Shown here piece after piece: positions 1,829 through 10,287 of a stretch of 64,000 nt of DNA. How positions within the stretch are numbered: position 1 is the stretch's first letter; every line of letters starts with the position of its first letter. The notes beneath the pieces are model-generated. The model had not been told where the DNA came from. It saw only the letters and a program-made list of their open reading frames with translations, and searched no databases. This DNA is from Candidatus Hydrogenisulfobacillus filiaventi (GTDB lineage Bacteria; Bacillota; Sulfobacillia; Sulfobacillales; R501), in NCBI GenBank assembly GCA_902809825.1, contig LR778114.1, positions 1,550,001 through 1,614,000 on the forward strand. Direction: 5' to 3'. A program made the position numbers and the translations under genes.

Positions 1829-3952
1829 CTAGTGGAGCACCGACGCCGGCCGGGCCTCCCCGAGCGCCTCGTCCACCCAGCGGCGCAGGAGGGCCCGTTC
1901 CGGCGCCGCCAGGGCGGGGTCCTCCGCCAGCAGGGCCCGCGCCTCGGCCCGGGCCTGCTGCAGGATGTCGAGGTCGGTCAGGGGGTCGGCCAGCTGAAAC
2001 GCGCGGACGCCGTGCTGGCGGATACCCAGCACCTCCCCCGGGCCGCGCAGGTGCAGGTCCTCCTCCGCCAGGGCCAGCCCGTCCCGCAACCGCACCATGG
2101 CGCCGATGCGGGCCTGGGCCTCCTCGGATTCGCTGTCATGGATAAGGAAGCAGAAGCCGGGATCGCGGCCCCGGCCCACCCGGCCCCGCAGCTGGTGCAG
2201 CTGGGCCAGCCCGAAGCGGTCGGCGCTCTCGATCACCATCACGGTGGCGTTGGGAACGTCCACCCCCACCTCCACGATGGTGGTGCTGACCAGGACATCA
2301 ATCGCCCCCTGACGGAAGCGGTCCATTACCGCCTCCCGCTCCGCCCGCGGCATCTGACCATGCAGCAGCCCCACCCGCCAGCCGGGCACCGCCGCCATCC
2401 CCCGCGCCAGCTCCACGGCACCCCGCCCGGGCAGCTGGGGGGACTGCTGCACCAGCGGGCACACCACATAAGCCTGCCGCCCGCGGCGCACCTCCTCCGC
2501 CACTTTCTGGTAGGCGTCGCGGCGGCGCGCCTGGGGAAGGGCCACGGTGGTAACCGGCCGCCGGCCGGGGGGCAAGCCTTCAATGCGGGAGAGGGCCAGA
2601 TCCCCGTAGACCGTAAGGGCAAGGGTCCGGGGAATGGGGGTGGCCGTCATGACCAGCAGGTCGGGGGCGAAGCCTTTGCCGGTCAGCACCGCCCGCTGAC
2701 GCACCCCGAAGCGGTGCTGTTCGTCAATGACCACCACCCCCAGGTCCCGGAACTGAACCCCCTGGGAAAGGAGGGCCTGTGTCCCCACCACCAGCGGCAA
2801 CCGGCCGGCCTCCACCGCCTCCCGGACGCCATCGGCGGCGCGGTCGTTCCCGACCAGCAGCCCCACTTCCAGGCCCAGCGGGCGCAGCCATCCCTCCAGT
2901 ACGGCGGCCTGCTGTTCAGCCAGGATTTCGGTCGGCGCCATCAGCGCCGCTTGCCGCCCTGCATCCACCGCCGCCAGCAGGGCCAGGGCAGCCAGGACGG
3001 TCTTCCCGGAACCCACCTCACCCTGCAGCAGGCGGGCCATAGGCCGGGGCGCGGCCAGGTCGGCCGCGATCTCCGACCAGGCCGCCTCCTGACCGGGGGT
3101 CAGCGGGAACGGCAGGGCCTCCCGGAACCGCCGGGCCAGCGGGCCGTCGGGCTGCTGCGCCTGTCCGGGCTGACTGCCGGGGCCGTGCAACAGCTGCACC
3201 GCCAGCGCAATCCGGAAGAATTCGTCGAAGACCAGACGCCGCCGGGCGCGTTCCCGCTCCCGGCTGTCGGCGGGAAAGTGCATCCGGGTGACCGCCCAGG
3301 CCCGCGGCGGCAAGTCCAGCCGCTCCCGCAACGGCAGCGGCAGGGGATCCGCCGCCTGGGCCGCCAGGGCAGGCACGTGCCGGCGCATGAACTCCCGCAT
3401 CCAGCGCTGTTTGAGACCCCCGCTCAGGGGATATACCGGCACCAGACCGGTGGGGGCCACCTCCCCCTCCTCCAGGGCCTCCCACTCGGGATGGGTCATA
3501 GCCAGCTGCCGGCCGCGCCATTCCACCGGGCCGGACAGGAGCACCCGCCGCCCGGGCTGGAAGACGCGGCTCAGGTAGGCGGCGTGGAAGAACGTGACCG
3601 CCAGGCGGGCCGCCCCTTCCCCCACCTCTACATGCAGGATGGGGCCCGACCGCCCCGGCCGCGGGTCCAGCCGGGCCCGCAGCACGGTCGCGGCCACCGT
3701 CGCCTCCAGGCCGGGGCGCAGGCCGGCCAAAGGGGTAAGGGCGGTGCGGTCGAGATGCCGGCGCGGCCAGAGGCTCAGCAGGTCCTCCGCCACGTGCAGG
3801 CCCAGCGCCGCCAGGTCCGCGGCCCGGGCCGGCCCTACCCCCGTCAGTCGGTCGAGGGGGTCCCGGAGCCCGACTCCACCACGATTTCGAGCCAGGGACC
3901 GGTCTCGGCGGGCGGCAGCGGCACCACCACGGCGTTGAGTCGGCTCTCCCAC
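1829..3952 (-). CDS. recG: ATP-dependent DNA helicase RecG
   Basis: RecG is a superfamily 2 helicase that reverses stalled replication forks and branch-migrates junctions. The protein (707 residues, typical length) has the wedge/OB region first (VGP helix-hairpin near residue 38, then an OB fold), Walker A GEVGSGKT near the middle, the DEQH box characteristic of RecG, the ATATPIPRT motif and a helicase C lobe with VSTTIVEVGVDVPNA and QLRGRVGR. The only in-frame start that keeps the N-terminal helices is a GTG overlapping the end of fakA by 109 bases. That is long for an overlap, so a later non-ATG start is possible. The recG-after-fakA order matches Bacillus. Confidence 0.95.
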   Translation of the reverse strand: MGEPTQRRGGAAAARRDRSLARNRGGVGLRDPLDRLTGVGPARAADLAALGLHVAEDLLSLWPRRHLDRTALTPLAGLRPGLEATVAATVLRARLDPRPGRSGPILHVEVGEGAARLAVTFFHAAYLSRVFQPGRRVLLSGPVEWRGRQLAMTHPEWEALEEGEVAPTGLVPVYPLSGGLKQRWMREFMRRHVPALAAQAADPLPLPLRERLDLPPRAWAVTRMHFPADSRERERARRRLVFDEFFRIALAVQLLHGPGSQPGQAQQPDGPLARRFREALPFPLTPGQEAAWSEIAADLAAPRPMARLLQGEVGSGKTVLAALALLAAVDAGRQAALMAPTEILAEQQAAVLEGWLRPLGLEVGLLVGNDRAADGVREAVEAGRLPLVVGTQALLSQGVQFRDLGVVVIDEQHRFGVRQRAVLTGKGFAPDLLVMTATPIPRTLALTVYGDLALSRIEGLPPGRRPVTTVALPQARRRDAYQKVAEEVRRGRQAYVVCPLVQQSPQLPGRGAVELARGMAAVPGWRVGLLHGQMPRAEREAVMDRFRQGAIDVLVSTTIVEVGVDVPNATVMVIESADRFGLAQLHQLRGRVGRGRDPGFCFLIHDSESEEAQARIGAMVRLRDGLALAEEDLHLRGPGEVLGIRQHGVRAFQLADPLTDLDILQQARAEARALLAEDPALAAPERALLRRWVDEALGEARPASVLH

Positions 3953-5271
3953 CAGGTTCGTTCCTCCTCGCTGCTGCGGGCGTCGATGTACACCGTGACC
4001 GGACCCCCGTCCGCCGGGCCCGCTATCCGGTCCGCCAGGTCGGCCCGGGAAGGCAGCGGCGGCCCCGCTCCCTCCAGCCGCCAGCCGCCGGGTTCCCGCC
4101 AGACCCGGTAATGCCGGGCTCCCGCCACCGCTTGGGCCATGATGCGCCGGTTCTCCCCCCAGGCGCGGCCGGGATCATAATGCAGAGCGGCCAGAGCGGC
4201 CAGGGCGGGGCCGGGCACCGCCAGCGCCCCGGCAGGACCGCGCCCCGGCAGGGCCCAGATCCAGCCCGCGCCGTCGGCGGCGGCGGCGGGCTCCGCCAGT
4301 TCCGCCCCCAGTTCGGCCAGCACCGGGGCCCACCGTGCCTCCCCGGCCACCCGCAGACCGCCCTCCGCCCGGGCCGCCTCGGCCATCTGCAGGCGCATGT
4401 CCTGCAGTTCCAGCCGCCGGATGCCGCCCCAGCCGGCGAGCAGGGCCACCAGTTCGGCCGGGCGGTCGGTGTGGACATGCACCTTGAGCCCGGCTTCGGA
4501 GGCGGCCACCACCACCGAGTCCCCCAGTTCCTCCAGCCGCGCCGCCGCCTCTTCGGCAGCCAGCCCCCCGATGGGGCCGGTGAGGAGCGCCTCCACGTCG
4601 TAGGGCCGCGCCACCGGCACCGCCGCCTGGCGGCGGGCCCTTTCCCCGTCGCCGGGAACGGCGGCCGGGGGAGCCACCCCTTCCACCAGCGCCCAGGCCT
4701 CGACCACCGCCAGCCAGCCCCGGGCGCCGGCGTCCACCACCCCGGCCCGCCGCAGTGCCGGCAGCTGGTCGCGGGTCCCGGCCAGGGCCTCCCAGCCCGC
4801 TTCCAGCGCCGCCGCCAGCACCGCCGCCACCGTCGGCGCCCCCCGCGCCGCCGCCGCCATGGCACGGGCGACGGTGAGGACGGTGCCCTCCACCGGGCGG
4901 TAGACCTTGGCATACGCCTGTTCGGCCGCCCGCTGCAGCGCCTCCGCCAGGCCGTCCGCATCCCAGGCCTCCCGGCCGCGGGCGGCCAGCTGCATCCCCC
5001 GCAGCAGCTGGGACAGGATCATGCCGGAATTGCCGCGGGCCCCCAGCATCGCCCCGTCCGCGGCAGCCCGGGCCACCACCTCCAGGCTGCTGCCGGCAGC
5101 CCGCCCGGCAGCCGCCCGGGCCTCCCGCAGGGTCGCCAGCATGTTGTGACCGGTGTCCCCGTCCGGCACCGGGAAGACATTCAAACGGTCAATCTCTCGG
5201 GCCTGCTGCCCCAGCCGCTCCTCCGCCGCCGCCAGCCATTGCCGCAGGCGTTCGCCCGTGACGGTTGTCAT
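3844..5271 (-). CDS. fakA: FakA/YloV-like fatty acid kinase (DhaL domain)
   Basis: The N-terminal DhaL-type kinase domain is clear: NVFPVPDGDTGHNM near residue 30 (the Asp residues bind Mg-ATP) and GARGNSGMILSQLLRG near residue 78. In Firmicutes this family phosphorylates fatty acids held by a FakB/DegV carrier, feeding exogenous fatty acids to PlsX/PlsY. At 475 residues it is shorter than the roughly 550 of Bacillus YloV; the loss is in the poorly conserved C-terminal half. It sits between asp23 and recG as in Bacillus. No fakB is visible in the window. Confidence 0.85.
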   Translation of the reverse strand: MTTVTGERLRQWLAAAEERLGQQAREIDRLNVFPVPDGDTGHNMLATLREARAAAGRAAGSSLEVVARAAADGAMLGARGNSGMILSQLLRGMQLAARGREAWDADGLAEALQRAAEQAYAKVYRPVEGTVLTVARAMAAAARGAPTVAAVLAAALEAGWEALAGTRDQLPALRRAGVVDAGARGWLAVVEAWALVEGVAPPAAVPGDGERARRQAAVPVARPYDVEALLTGPIGGLAAEEAAARLEELGDSVVVAASEAGLKVHVHTDRPAELVALLAGWGGIRRLELQDMRLQMAEAARAEGGLRVAGEARWAPVLAELGAELAEPAAAADGAGWIWALPGRGPAGALAVPGPALAALAALHYDPGRAWGENRRIMAQAVAGARHYRVWREPGGWRLEGAGPPLPSRADLADRIAGPADGGPVTVYIDARSSEEERTWWESRLNAVVVPLPPAETGPWLEIVVESGSGTPSTD

Positions 5272-5326: not shown

Positions 5327-5668
5327 TCAACGGACGCCCTGGACATGCACGGTGATGCGCTGGGGACGGACCCCTACGGCGTCCTGCAGCCGGAACCCGA
5401 TGTGCTCCACAATGGCCCGCCCGACTTCAGCGATCCGCACCCCGTAGCCGACCACCACGTAGACATCCACTTCCAGGCGCCCGTCCTCCTCCCGCACCTG
5501 CACACCCCGGGCCAGGTTCTCCCGCCGCAGCAGCTCCTGCAGGCCTTCGGATACGCCGCGCGGGATCATGCCCACCACCCCGTAGCTCTCCACCGTGGCC
5601 AGGCCGGCCAAGGTGGCAATCACGTCCTCCCCTACCGTCAGCCGGCCCCACGGGGTCTCCCGTTCCAT
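5327..5668 (-). CDS. Asp23/Gls24 family protein (YloU-like)
   Basis: This 113-residue protein has the Asp23/Gls24 pattern: an opening GRLTVGEDVIATLAGLAT segment, a central GV..MIPRGVSEGL stretch, and the VDVYVVVGYGVRI strand followed by a helix and a terminal ITVHVQGVR strand. Family members are linked to cell envelope homeostasis and alkaline stress; no enzymatic activity is established. It lies directly upstream of fakA, the conserved yloU-yloV pairing, and divergent from rpmB. Confidence 0.9.
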   Translation of the reverse strand: MERETPWGRLTVGEDVIATLAGLATVESYGVVGMIPRGVSEGLQELLRRENLARGVQVREEDGRLEVDVYVVVGYGVRIAEVGRAIVEHIGFRLQDAVGVRPQRITVHVQGVR

Positions 5669-5778: not shown

Positions 5779-5970
5779 TTGGCCTACCGGTGCGAAATCT
5801 GCGGGAAGCACGGCAAGTCCGGCAACCGCGTGAGCCATTCCCATCACAAGACCCGCCGGCGTTGGAAGCCCAACATCCAGCGGGTGCACGCGGTGGTGGA
5901 CGGTCGCAACCGTCACATCTACGTCTGCACGGCCTGCCTGCGCGCGGGACGGGTGACGCGGGCGGTCTAG
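5779..5970 (+). CDS. rpmB: 50S ribosomal protein L28
   Basis: The 63-residue protein is L28 of the large ribosomal subunit. It has the RCEICGK opening, the SHSHHKTRR segment and a C-terminal VCTACLRAG; the two CxxC pairs make it the zinc-binding form. Translation starts at TTG, preceded by a perfect AGGAGG eight bases upstream. It is the only plus-strand gene of the block, between asp23 and spoVM as in Bacillus. Confidence 0.97.
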   Translation: MAYRCEICGKHGKSGNRVSHSHHKTRRRWKPNIQRVHAVVDGRNRHIYVCTACLRAGRVTRAV

Positions 5971-6029: not shown

Positions 6030-6950
6030 TCAGGGCCGCTCCCGGCGGAGACGCTCCAGTTCTGCGGCCGGGAAACGGTAGGAACGGCGGCAGTAGGGAC
6101 ACGTCACCTCGGCCCCGCCCTCACTGATCAGCGCTTCCAGCTCACTGGCCGGCAGGGCTGCCAGGATGTCCCGGCTGCGTACCGGTCCGCAATGGCAGCT
6201 GTAGGCCAGCCGCTCCGGCGGGAAGTAGTGCACCGGCCCGGGCAGCAGCGCCTCCAGGAGGTCCTCCGGGCGGGCGCCGGCGGCCAGCCGGCGGCTCACC
6301 GCACCCAAGGCCTCCACCCGGTCGGCCAGCAGGTCGCCCAAACCGGCCGGGGCATCCGGCAGGAGCTGCACCACCAGCCCGCCGGCCGCCGCCACCAGCC
6401 CGCTGCGCCCCACCAGCACCCCCAACGCCACCGCACTCGGGACCTGCTCCGATTGCAGATAATAGCGGGTCAGGTCCTCCGCAATCTCCCCCGTAACCAG
6501 CTCCACCTCAGTGCGGTAGCCCTGGTCGCTCTCCCGGTCCACCACCGTGACCGAGAGGCTGCCCCGGTTGCCGACGGCTTGTCCCACCGCCAGCTTGCCG
6601 TCCGGACGCAAGGGCAACTCCACATCCGGACGCTCGATACGGGCCCGCAGCTCCCCGCCGGTTTCCGCCTGCGCCTGCACCATACCGGCCGGGCCGCCCC
6701 CGTTTACCGACACCGTCAGCCGGAAGCGGGTCTTGAAGTCCGCAGCCAGCAGGGCCGCGGCCGCCAGCAGCCGCCCCATGGCGGCCGCCGCCACCGGTGT
6801 CGCTGCATGCAGTTCCTGTGCGGTCAGCGCGCTCTTGGTCACCAGTGCCGCCACCGCCCGCACGGCCCCCCCGGCCGCCGTGGCCCGGACCCGGTAGTCC
6901 TGCCAGGGTCCGGGCAGCCGCGCTTCCCTGCCGGTCTGCACCCTCGCCAC
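6030..6950 (-). CDS. hslO: Redox-regulated chaperone Hsp33
   Basis: Hsp33 is a cytoplasmic holdase switched on by oxidation of a zinc centre. The 306-residue protein has the family fold with GRLLAAAALLA, SVNGGGPAGMVQAQA and KLAVGQAVGN segments, and the C-terminal zinc motif in the form SCHCG (CxC) followed about 35 residues later by CPYC (CxxC). All four cysteines are present, so redox control should be intact. It ends convergently with rpmB. Confidence 0.95.
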   Translation of the reverse strand: MARVQTGREARLPGPWQDYRVRATAAGGAVRAVAALVTKSALTAQELHAATPVAAAAMGRLLAAAALLAADFKTRFRLTVSVNGGGPAGMVQAQAETGGELRARIERPDVELPLRPDGKLAVGQAVGNRGSLSVTVVDRESDQGYRTEVELVTGEIAEDLTRYYLQSEQVPSAVALGVLVGRSGLVAAAGGLVVQLLPDAPAGLGDLLADRVEALGAVSRRLAAGARPEDLLEALLPGPVHYFPPERLAYSCHCGPVRSRDILAALPASELEALISEGGAEVTCPYCRRSYRFPAAELERLRRERP

Positions 6951-7007: not shown

Positions 7008-7091
7008 CTATCGCTTCCGATCCCACAGGCCCAGGAACAACTGCAGGATACGCCCGACCAGGCGGGGAACCTTCACCACCTGCACCTGCAT
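7008..7091 (-). CDS. spoVM: SpoVM-like sporulation peptide (27 residues)
   Basis: The frame encodes a 27-residue peptide beginning MQVQVVKVPRLVG and ending LGLWDRKR. Bacillus SpoVM (26 residues) has the same architecture: a short basic/hydrophobic start, a K-x-P motif near residue 8, an amphipathic helix with L, I and G at matching places, and a charged tail. SpoVM recognises the curved forespore membrane and anchors the coat ATPase SpoIVA. A good AGGAGGGG ribosome site precedes the ATG. The location, close to rpmB, asp23 and fakA, is the Bacillus spoVM locus. Small size limits certainty, but residue pattern and synteny agree. Confidence 0.83.
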   Translation of the reverse strand: MQVQVVKVPRLVGRILQLFLGLWDRKR

Positions 7092-7108
7092 GCCTGACCC
7101 CTCCTCTG

Positions 7109-7375
7109 CTACCTGCCCCCTCCGGGGGCGAACAGCCGCCAGATCAGCCAGACCAGAGCCGCCACCGCCACCAATGGTCCCAGAGCCGCCCACAGCAGCC
7201 AGAGCCCGATCCCGAGCGGCCACAGGAAGAGCGGCAGCAGCCGGAGGAGCCCGGCCAATGCCAGCAGGGCCAGCACCAGCGCCACCGCCCGCAACCGGCC
7301 CACCCGGGTCACCGCCAGAGGCCGGCTGCCCCAGCGGACCGGCCGGGGCCGGCCCAACGGCCGACCGTACGCCAT
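7109..7375 (-). CDS. Small membrane protein, unknown function
   Basis: The 88-residue product has a basic N-terminus and then two or three hydrophobic stretches (AVALVLALLALAGLL, LFLWPLGIGLWLLWAALG, LVAVAALVWLIWRLF). I chose the ATG of MAYGRPLG because AAGGGGG lies eight bases before it; the upstream GTG has no room for a ribosome site. It occupies the place between rsgA and spoVM where Bacillus has rpe and thiN. No family is recognised. Confidence 0.6.
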   Translation of the reverse strand: MAYGRPLGRPRPVRWGSRPLAVTRVGRLRAVALVLALLALAGLLRLLPLFLWPLGIGLWLLWAALGPLVAVAALVWLIWRLFAPGGGR

Positions 7376-7460
7376 CCCTGCCACCCCCTTCCCGCCGCCG
7401 CATCCGTGGCGACACCCTCCATGCTATACGGCAGGGGCCTCAGGGGTGACAGGGAGCCGC

Positions 7461-8354
7461 CTACGGCGCGGCCGCGGGCACCCGCGGCGGGTGCCCGGGC
7501 CCCTCTGCCAGGATGCGGCGGTAATGATGGTACCGCAGGGCGTCCACCGTCCCGGCCTCCACCGCCGCCCGCACCCCGCAGCCCGGTTCCTCCCCGTGCA
7601 GGCAATCCGGAAAACGGCAGCGGATCCCTTCCCACTCCCGGAAAGCGGCCCGCACCGCCAACGGGTCCTCCCAGTGGAGGTCGAGGTGGGTGAAGCCGGG
7701 GGTGTCGGCCAGCCACCAGCCCGGTCCGGCCTCCACGATGCGCACCCGGCGCGTGGTCTGCCGCCCGCGCCCGATCCGGCTCAGTTCCTGCACCACCTCC
7801 CCCGCCGCCGGCACCAGCCGGTTGAGCAGGGAGGACTTGCCGGCCCCGCTCTCCCCGCTCAGAACCCAGATGCCGGAGCGGGGGTGGCGCCGGAAGGCAT
7901 CCAGGCCGGTCCCGGTGCGGCTGCTGACCGCCCAGACGGGATAGCCGGCGGCCCGGTAGACCGCGGCCAGGGTCTCCACCGGCCCCGGGTCCTCCACCAG
8001 GTCGACCTTGGTCACCACCACCTCGGCCGCCAGTCCCAGCAGCTCCGCCGCCACCAGGCGCCGATCCAGCAGCCAGCGCGACCCTTCCGGATGCCGGAGG
8101 GAGAAGCACGCCAGCACCCCATCCGGGTTGGCCACCGGCGGCCGGCCCAGGACCCGCCGCCGCGGCAGCACCTGTAGGATCCGGGCTTCGCCGGCCTCGG
8201 GGTCGGTGACCTCGATTTCGACCTCATCACCGGCCAGGATGCGGCCCGCCTCCAGCTTGAGCCGTCCCCGCAGGTGGCAGAGATAGCGGCGGCCGTCCGC
8301 CGGCACCCACACGGTCGGCCGGTTGGCTTCCACCGTCTCGACCCGCCCCTGCAT
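7461..8354 (-). CDS. rsgA: Small ribosomal subunit biogenesis GTPase RsgA
   Basis: RsgA (YloQ/CpgA) is a circularly permuted GTPase that checks late 30S assembly and releases when GTP is hydrolysed. An N-terminal OB-fold is followed by the permuted motifs: G4 TKVDL near residue 113, G1 GESGAGKSS near residue 166 and G3 DTPG near residue 216. The C-terminal zinc knuckle CRFPDCLHGEEPGC has the family spacing. Length (297) is normal. It follows prkC as in Bacillus. Confidence 0.96.
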   Translation of the reverse strand: MQGRVETVEANRPTVWVPADGRRYLCHLRGRLKLEAGRILAGDEVEIEVTDPEAGEARILQVLPRRRVLGRPPVANPDGVLACFSLRHPEGSRWLLDRRLVAAELLGLAAEVVVTKVDLVEDPGPVETLAAVYRAAGYPVWAVSSRTGTGLDAFRRHPRSGIWVLSGESGAGKSSLLNRLVPAAGEVVQELSRIGRGRQTTRRVRIVEAGPGWWLADTPGFTHLDLHWEDPLAVRAAFREWEGIRCRFPDCLHGEEPGCGVRAAVEAGTVDALRYHHYRRILAEGPGHPPRVPAAAP

Positions 8355-8361
8355 GCGCTGC

Positions 8362-10287
8362 CTAACCTCCCGTGGTGGTGTTACCGGTCCCGCCCGGCGC
8401 CGGCGCCGGGGAGGGACCGTAGTTCGGCACCAGGGCGGTCGGCGGTTGTGCCTGCCCGTTCAGGAAGACGAGCAGCTGGCCGGAGGTGCCGTACCACACA
8501 AAGGGCAGGTTGACGGTCTGGCCGGGCCCCACCCGCTGGTAATAGACCTCCTCATTGTCCATGTTGTCGGTAATGACCACCTTGACCACCGAGTCCGGCG
8601 GGGCCGAGGCTGGCACCTGAAAGCGGGCGGTACTGAGGTTGCGGGTGGCGGAGGCGCTGGCAGGGCTGGGCCCCTCTGATACCACCACGCTAACGGCGCT
8701 GACGCCCGCAGCCTTGGTGTAGGGCGCCGGGCTCTGGTCAATGATGGTATTGGCCGGCTGGGTGCTGTATTGCAAGGTCGAGGAACCCAGGGCCAGGTTG
8801 AGGGCCGCCAGCTGTGCGGAGGCCTCCCCCACCGTGAGACCGGCCAGGTTAGGCACCAACTGCCCCAGGCCCGTGCCTTTGGAGACCCAGAGCGTCACTT
8901 CGGTCCCTTCCCGGGCGCGGGTACCGCTGGACGGCCGTTGCCGCACCACCTGCCCGCGCGGGGCGCGGCTGTCCACGTGGCGCACCCGCACGCGCAGGCC
9001 GGCCACCTGCAGCACCTGGCTGGCCTGAAAGACGTCCTCCCCCTCCACCAGCGGCACCCGGATCATGACCGGGCCGGAACTGACCACCAGCTCCACCGGC
9101 CGCCCGGCTTTGACAGCGGTCCGGGGTCCGGGCACCTCATGCAGCACCCGGCCGGGCGGTACCGTCGCCGACGGGGCGCGGCCGGCCACCTCCGCCACCA
9201 GCCCCGCTTGACGCAGCCGGGCCTCCGCCTGCGCCAGCGGCTGGCCCAGGACGTCAGGTACGGTCACGGTCGGGACCGCCAGCCAGCGGTCCAGGGCGTA
9301 GGCCCCCCCTAACCCCAACGCCAGCAGCAGCGCGGCGGCGCCGGCCGCCCAGGCCCACCAGCGCCGTTTGCGCCGGGGCCGGCGGGGCGCAGCCGGCGCT
9401 GGCGCGGCCGCAGCAGCGGGGGCCTCGCGCTCCGGGGCGCGCGCCGCCGCCGCTTCCCAGGGCAGTTCCCCCTGACGCACCCGCTGGATGTCCGCCCGCA
9501 GGCTGGCGGCACTCTGATACCGGTCGGCCGGATCCTTGGCCAGGGCCCGCTCCACAAGGCGGGCCACCCCTTCCGGGATGCCGGGCCGCACGGCATCCAC
9601 CCGCGGCGCCTGGTCCTGCAGATGCTTGATGGCCACCCCGATGGGACTGTCCCCCTCGAAGGGCAGGCGGCCGGTCAGCATCTCGAACAGCACCACCCCC
9701 AGGGAGTAGATATCGGACTGGGCCCCCACCATCTTGCCGCGGGCCTGCTCCGGACTCAGGTACTGCACCGTGCCCAGCAGGGAGCCGGTGTTGACCAGGG
9801 TGCCGCTGGTCGCGGCGTAGGCAATGCCGAAGTCGGTGACCTTGACCACCCCGTCGGCCGCCAGCAGGATGTTCTGGGGCTTGATGTCGCGGTGGATGAG
9901 GCGGGCGGCGTGCGCCACGCTCAAGGCCTGCGCCACCTGGTCCGCGATGGACAGGGCCTCCTCCACCGGCAAGGGGCCGGTCCGGTCCAGGTACTGGCGG
10001 AGGGTCTCCCCGTCCACGTACTCCATGACCATGTAATGGAGGTCGGGAGCCTCCCGCCCTACCTCATAGACATGGACCACATGGGGGTCGTTGAGGGAGG
10101 CGGCGGCGCGCGCCTCCCCGGCAAACCGGCGCACCACCTCCTCGTCCTCCGCCCACTGGTGCTTCAGCATCTTAACCGCTACCCAGCGGTTCTCCTGCCG
10201 GTCCCAGGCCCGGTAGACCAAGGACATGCCGCCGGTCCCGATGCGCTCCACCACCTGGTAGCGGCCGCCCAGCACTTTACCGACCAT
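8362..10287 (-). CDS. prkC: PASTA-domain serine/threonine protein kinase
   Basis: A membrane Ser/Thr kinase of the PrkC/PknB type. The N-terminal kinase domain shows the glycine loop IGTGGMSLVY, the AVKML lysine, HRDIKPQNIL and DFGIAY. After a basic stretch there is one transmembrane segment near residues 310-335, then three extracellular PASTA repeats, each starting with a VP motif, and a C-terminal extension. PASTA repeats sense muropeptides/lipid II, and PrkC signals spore germination in Bacillus. The start ATG overlaps the end of prpC by 11 bases, so kinase and phosphatase are translationally coupled. 641 residues is typical. Confidence 0.96.
   Translation of the reverse strand: MVGKVLGGRYQVVERIGTGGMSLVYRAWDRQENRWVAVKMLKHQWAEDEEVVRRFAGEARAAASLNDPHVVHVYEVGREAPDLHYMVMEYVDGETLRQYLDRTGPLPVEEALSIADQVAQALSVAHAARLIHRDIKPQNILLAADGVVKVTDFGIAYAATSGTLVNTGSLLGTVQYLSPEQARGKMVGAQSDIYSLGVVLFEMLTGRLPFEGDSPIGVAIKHLQDQAPRVDAVRPGIPEGVARLVERALAKDPADRYQSAASLRADIQRVRQGELPWEAAAARAPEREAPAAAAAPAPAAPRRPRRKRRWWAWAAGAAALLLALGLGGAYALDRWLAVPTVTVPDVLGQPLAQAEARLRQAGLVAEVAGRAPSATVPPGRVLHEVPGPRTAVKAGRPVELVVSSGPVMIRVPLVEGEDVFQASQVLQVAGLRVRVRHVDSRAPRGQVVRQRPSSGTRAREGTEVTLWVSKGTGLGQLVPNLAGLTVGEASAQLAALNLALGSSTLQYSTQPANTIIDQSPAPYTKAAGVSAVSVVVSEGPSPASASATRNLSTARFQVPASAPPDSVVKVVITDNMDNEEVYYQRVGPGQTVNLPFVWYGTSGQLLVFLNGQAQPPTALVPNYGPSPAPAPGGTGNTTTGG

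Follow-up and report, generated by a model that had tools for sequence, protein, structure and literature searches.

Gene order and signals at the spoVM locus

The window, which is the whole 64,000-nucleotide stretch of the 'Candidatus Hydrogenisulfobacillus filiaventi' genome (R50) that was analysed, contains a 27-codon gene, spoVM, in the gene order pknB-rsgA-(rpe)-orf91-spoVM-hslO-rpmB-asp23-dak. The features of this locus are as follows:

3844..5271, minus strand: a gene that we take to be Dak/yloV-like; synteny anchor by conserved position
5327..5668, minus strand: presumably an Asp23-family gene (yloU-like); adjoins rpmB in relatives and in Bacillus-type loci
5779..5970, plus strand: rpmB (ribosomal protein L28); synteny anchor
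6030..6950, minus strand: hslO (Hsp33); directly downstream of spoVM
7008..7091, minus strand: spoVM, 27 codons, MQVQVVKVPRLVGRILQLFLGLWDRKR
7098..7106, minus strand: spoVM ribosome-binding site GAGGAGGGG, read directly
7109..7384, minus strand: orf91, a 91-aa hydrophobic membrane protein; directly upstream of spoVM
7420..7450, minus strand: promoter-like element, GTCACC...CGTATAGCATG, in the gap between rsgA and orf91; read by eye
7461..8354, minus strand: rsgA (cpgA); upstream synteny anchor
8362..10287, minus strand: a protein kinase gene, assumed here to be pknB/prkC-like; synteny anchor upstream of rsgA

An earlier, sequence-only reading of this DNA had proposed spoVM at exactly these coordinates, leaving the strand unstated; the start codon (ATG at 7091-7089) and the stop codon (TAG at 7010-7008) lie on the minus strand, and the ribosome site that it claimed is present 6 nt before the ATG. 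It had also set the gene in the rpmB neighborhood, which is right in outline, but rpmB lies at a distance of ~1.1 kb in convergent orientation, and hslO separates the two genes. In some relatives (e.g., G005) rpe sits between rsgA and orf91, and its end is visible in another genome, G003; rpe is absent from the R50 rsgA-orf91 interval (window 7385-7460).

A short gene under selection

Does the 27-codon frame stand on its own? The frame stays open upstream, giving a nominal 135-aa ORF (7008-7415) that overlaps orf91 in a different frame, and with the high G+C content no stop interrupts its 135 codons, which start at a GTG. It is nonetheless extremely improbable that the peptide comes from a random open frame or forms the end of such a 135-aa protein: it has its own ATG and ribosome site, conservation within the long frame is limited to the last 27 codons, and the long reading collides with orf91, which is conserved as a protein in its own frame (pN/pS 0.36). 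The 135-aa version was considered and rejected. Several relatives have open frames of only 28-50 codons at the spoVM position.

A tblastn search recovered the peptide in 39 of 42 order genomes, R50 itself counted, with E-values from 4e-13 to 9e-5; the misses are two drafts that are 61-63% complete (G040 and G041) and G003. It lies at one syntenic place in the 30 loci examined. Sulfobacillus thermotolerans Kr1 (CP019454) and S. harzensis DSM 109850 carry it too, as do two genomes deposited under the name S. benefaciens. The sequence-only reading would have been refuted by a peptide that close relatives do not share; they conserve it, at the same interval. A comparison of 29 distinct orthologues over 22 codons shows variation at the third position in 21 codons and no change at the second in 16; pS averages 0.76 and pN 0.14, giving a pN/pS of 0.19 for the core, a further argument against a chance ORF, and the two alternative frames are broken by stops in 25/29 and 11/29 orthologues. 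By these measures, spoVM is under purifying selection and reads as a coding sequence.

Identity of the peptide

The curated NCBIfam model of SpoVM, NF033436, has a cut-off of 31 bits. The R50 peptide scores 13.3 bits (E 0.064 over 18,950 models), below this cut-off, and only one of 61 relatives exceeds it; the curated model misses nearly the whole order. A blind genome-wide scan of R50 with NF033436 does not list the spoVM locus, and the identification therefore rests on position and on relatives. A phmmer search with the peptide against PDB chains gave no match.

The relatives are informative at two levels. Within the order, 19 of 25 members match SpoVM_broad at E ≤ 1 (best E 5e-4), whereas any other family is matched by three of the 25 at most. 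At the level of the class, peptides encoded at the rsgA-rpmB interval match the SpoVM model at 38 bits in G052, over the cut-off, and at 28 bits in G058; these two, from other families of the class, bridge the order peptides to the model.

The residue pattern points the same way. SpoVM is 27 aa long in R50 and 26-29 aa across the order, in which M1, V3, V5, V6, K7, V8, P9, V12, G13, L16, Q17, and W23 are invariant among 25 distinct sequences; Pro9 alone is reported to be shared by every SpoVM homologue in the alignment of Ribis et al. (PMC5607322). The helix that follows Pro9 is strongly amphipathic, with a hydrophobic moment of 0.72 reached by 0.6% of permutations; the corresponding value for a Bacillus-type SpoVM is 0.61. 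The R50 peptide resembles B. subtilis SpoVM (26 aa, NF033436) in length, gapless register, Pro9, Gly13, Ile15, Gly21, the amphipathic helix, a net charge of +5, and a position between rsgA and rpmB-yloU-yloV; its gapless identity to a Bacillus-type SpoVM is 8/26 (permutation p 0.002). Loci with Bacillus-type SpoVM (54-61 bits) have rpmB and dak as neighbors, joined in several cases by asp23 or rsgA. The differences lie in the N-terminus (QVQVVKV in R50, KFYTIKL in B. subtilis), in the score under the curated cut-off and the low identity, and in the locus itself, which in R50 has hslO before rpmB, orf91 upstream of spoVM, and no rpe in the interval. Residue 2 is Q or R, unlike the Lys reported to be important at this position in B. 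subtilis. This substitution and the weak direct similarity (13.3 vs 31 bits) speak against a SpoVM assignment. The assignment, also that of the sequence-only reading, is well supported by synteny, by the intermediates from the class that the model recognizes, by Pro9, and by the amphipathic helix: the 27-codon gene is very probably a true but diverged SpoVM orthologue.

A membrane-protein family upstream of spoVM

The orf91 stop and the spoVM start are 17 nt apart in R50 and 17-77 nt apart in relatives. The Orf91 protein has no match above the curated cut-off to any Pfam or NCBIfam family, and its AlphaFold model, of low confidence (pTM 0.34), is one long helix with no clear hairpin. A strict motif search for orf91 was dropped because it missed most copies, and an ORF-and-hydrophobicity rule was used in its place. 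A profile built from the order sequences finds orf91 in 37 of 42 order genomes and, save for one marginal extra match, only adjoining spoVM; it is missing from G003, the two genomes of genus g15, and two incomplete drafts. With the same profile, the class member G055 shows a weak match immediately before spoVM, and several class members have similar proteins of 51-82 aa ahead of spoVM.

The association reaches well beyond the class. A profile of 12 order and class orf91 sequences was run against 1,199 ORFs from 30 spoVM loci across the phylum. At 18 of the 30 it picks out the ORF immediately before spoVM, with E-values between 1e-13 and 3e-4; no other ORF does better than 0.5, and shuffled sequences give nothing. 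A reverse profile, for which only the phylum sequences were used, recognizes 29 of 32 order-locus proteins, failing at the two g15 loci that lack orf91 and on the divergent R50 copy (E 4.1), which is tied to the family solely through the order-level profile and not through the phylum-wide model. A comparable short hydrophobic ORF precedes other genes of the neighborhood in 4 of 201 cases. There is no orf91 at Bacillus- or Paenibacillus-type loci, the type labels themselves being inferred. Judged from these profiles, orf91 belongs to a previously unnamed membrane-protein family that accompanies spoVM across much of the phylum.

A similar arrangement is known. In C. difficile, CD25622, which encodes a 50-aa protein of unknown function, lies directly upstream of spoVM and is co-transcribed with it; CD25622 was reported as conserved primarily in Peptostreptococcaceae (PMC5607322). 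The two loci share a small-protein gene directly upstream of spoVM and the proximity of spoVM to rpmB; in contrast to CD25622 as reported, the family found here at the same position is spread across the phylum. CD25622 is probably a member of the orf91 family.

What does such a partner do? We lean slightly towards a two-gene arrangement in which, over much of the spore-forming phylum but outside the Bacillus- and Paenibacillus-type loci seen here, spoVM is usually the second gene and its partner encodes a putative membrane protein of 50-90 aa that would act with SpoVM on the outer forespore membrane. Alternatively, orf91 may be a passenger in a conserved operon, functionally unconnected to SpoVM, a possible if rather doubtful explanation. 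It would account for the genomes that have spoVM without orf91 (G030 and G032) and for the Bacillus- and Paenibacillus-type loci, and it agrees with the phenotype of a CD25622 insertion in C. difficile, likely polar on spoVM, which resembles a spoVM mutant alone and shows no extra defect (PMC5607322). A mere passenger is harder to reconcile with an association that spans much of the phylum (18/30 loci, as compared to 4/201 for neighboring genes) and with the joint loss of orf91 and spoVM in G003. G030 and G032 (loci L016 and L018) belong to one genus.

Upstream elements

The promoter-like element before R50 orf91 is a looser form of a pattern that occurs upstream of orf91 in relatives, CACC-N14-16-CGTAnnATG. 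The strict pattern occurs in the gap before orf91 at 23 of 32 order loci, and the R50 locus is among those without it. One of the 23 is L018, from which orf91 has been lost; there the element is retained after rpe, upstream of spoVM. As a sign of shared SigE control, the same pattern was sought upstream of spoIVA and spoIIIAA and is absent there; these regions carry instead TCATAT/GCATAA-N14-CATA elements, which resemble SigE sites when judged by the usual SigE consensus. The element upstream of orf91-spoVM thus differs from the SigE-like elements before spoIVA and spoIIIAA. Separately, a strongly conserved stretch, TCATATCTTGCTACTGTCATTCATAGGGTGATCCCGGGACAGGCGAGGACCGGCG, lies ~50-90 nt upstream of spoIVA in most genomes of the order (L095-L113); beyond the SigE-like promoter, it has the look of a leader under conservation or of a regulator site.

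A sporulation programme retained

The sequence-only reading took the peptide as direct evidence that the organism makes spores. This goes too far: according to the species description, 'Spore formation was not observed' (PMC10080006). Moreover, SpoVM alone is weak evidence for function because a C. difficile spoVM mutant still makes spores (PMC5607322). What else of the pathway is encoded? The genes were checked through family searches and selected stretches. SpoIVA, for which the earlier reading had asked and whose absence, with that of other coat genes, would have refuted it, is present (TIGR02836, 728.7 bits vs a cut-off of 459.9); it is 492 aa long, with an intact Walker A motif (GPVRTGKST), and keeps Gly486, a residue that matters for SpoVM binding in B. 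subtilis. R50 further encodes Spo0A (384 bits), SigE (402 bits), SigK (330 bits), SpoIIAB, SigF, SpoVAD, SpoIVB, SpoIIE, SpoIIIAB, SpoIIIAA, and three SASPs; a second SigF/SigG-type factor, directly after SigE, is presumably SigG. SigF, SpoIVB, SpoVAD, SpoIIE, SpoIIIAA, and SpoIIIAB score below their NCBIfam cut-offs, as might be expected of a deep branch. Among the genes checked, this set points to a retained sporulation programme, which is not to say that the programme runs.

It could be argued that SpoVM is a relic, R50 having recently stopped sporulating so that the peptide no longer acts; the species description (PMC10080006) and a genome of 2.57 Mb, smaller than most in the order, would fit. 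We think this unlikely, given that Spo0A, SpoIIAB, SigF, SpoVAD, SpoIIE, SigE, SigK, SpoIVB, SpoIVA, SpoIIIAA/AB, and the SASPs are all present as open frames, and that a genome which did lose the programme, G003, lost spoVM, orf91, spoIVA, and the SASPs outright.

G003 serves as a natural control. It belongs to the same order, is 97% complete, and keeps Spo0A; family searches found no SigF/SigG-level match, SpoIIIAA, SpoIVA, or SASP, and the SpoIIE search gave a phosphatase-domain match only. Its locus (L068; G003:C138:1-640) takes in the end of rpe and, past a gap of ~400 nt, hslO; neither spoVM nor orf91 is found in this gap. G003 appears asporogenous. Its sister in the same genus, G005, has both spoVM and orf91. 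Elsewhere in the class, G047 lacks both a SpoIVA match and a recognizable spoVM, though the rpmB-rsgA interval is present. These observations suggest that spoVM was lost along with sporulation genes, in one clear loss event within the order; the pattern is suggestive, not statistical.

A possible role for the pair

By analogy to B. subtilis and C. difficile, orf91 and spoVM would be transcribed together by the mother cell during sporulation. The amphipathic helix of SpoVM (residues 10-26, after the break at Pro9) would insert into the convex outer forespore membrane and recruit the ATPase SpoIVA, which would polymerize into the basement layer of the coat. Orf91 may reside in the same membrane and, we hypothesize, would most likely aid SpoVM or its partners in one of three ways: insertion, retention, or coupling to cortex synthesis.

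It is also conceivable, if quite improbable, that the peptide is SpoVM by descent and has its main role elsewhere, for example in FtsH inhibition or cortex-synthase placement, rather than in anchoring SpoIVA. In B. subtilis, SpoVM binds SpoVD as well, and the placement of SpoVD depends on it (PMC7911427); in C. difficile, SpoIVA encasement can largely proceed without SpoVM (PMC5607322). Against such a shift, R50 SpoIVA keeps Gly486, and position 6 of SpoVM is a conservative Val.

Implications

By kind, spoVM of R50 is an ordinary gene in a diverged form. Galperin et al. (2012; PMC3533761) noted that spoVM is rarely annotated and asked whether distant versions might exist in spore-formers in which searches had failed; Sulfobacillus was not found in the main text of that paper. 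The order of R50 is a case of such 'distant versions of SpoVM', and a worked one: the curated model fails, and synteny, selection, and intermediates recover the gene. For the organism, the prediction is of a sporulation programme, open to testing, that persists in R50 although no spores were described. For the family, the orf91 proteins linked to spoVM have no place in models of coat assembly derived from B. subtilis. If the two-gene arrangement holds, these proteins would represent a missing coat or cortex morphogenetic factor, lacking at the B. subtilis locus, and could help explain why B. subtilis and C. difficile differ in their dependence on SpoVM.
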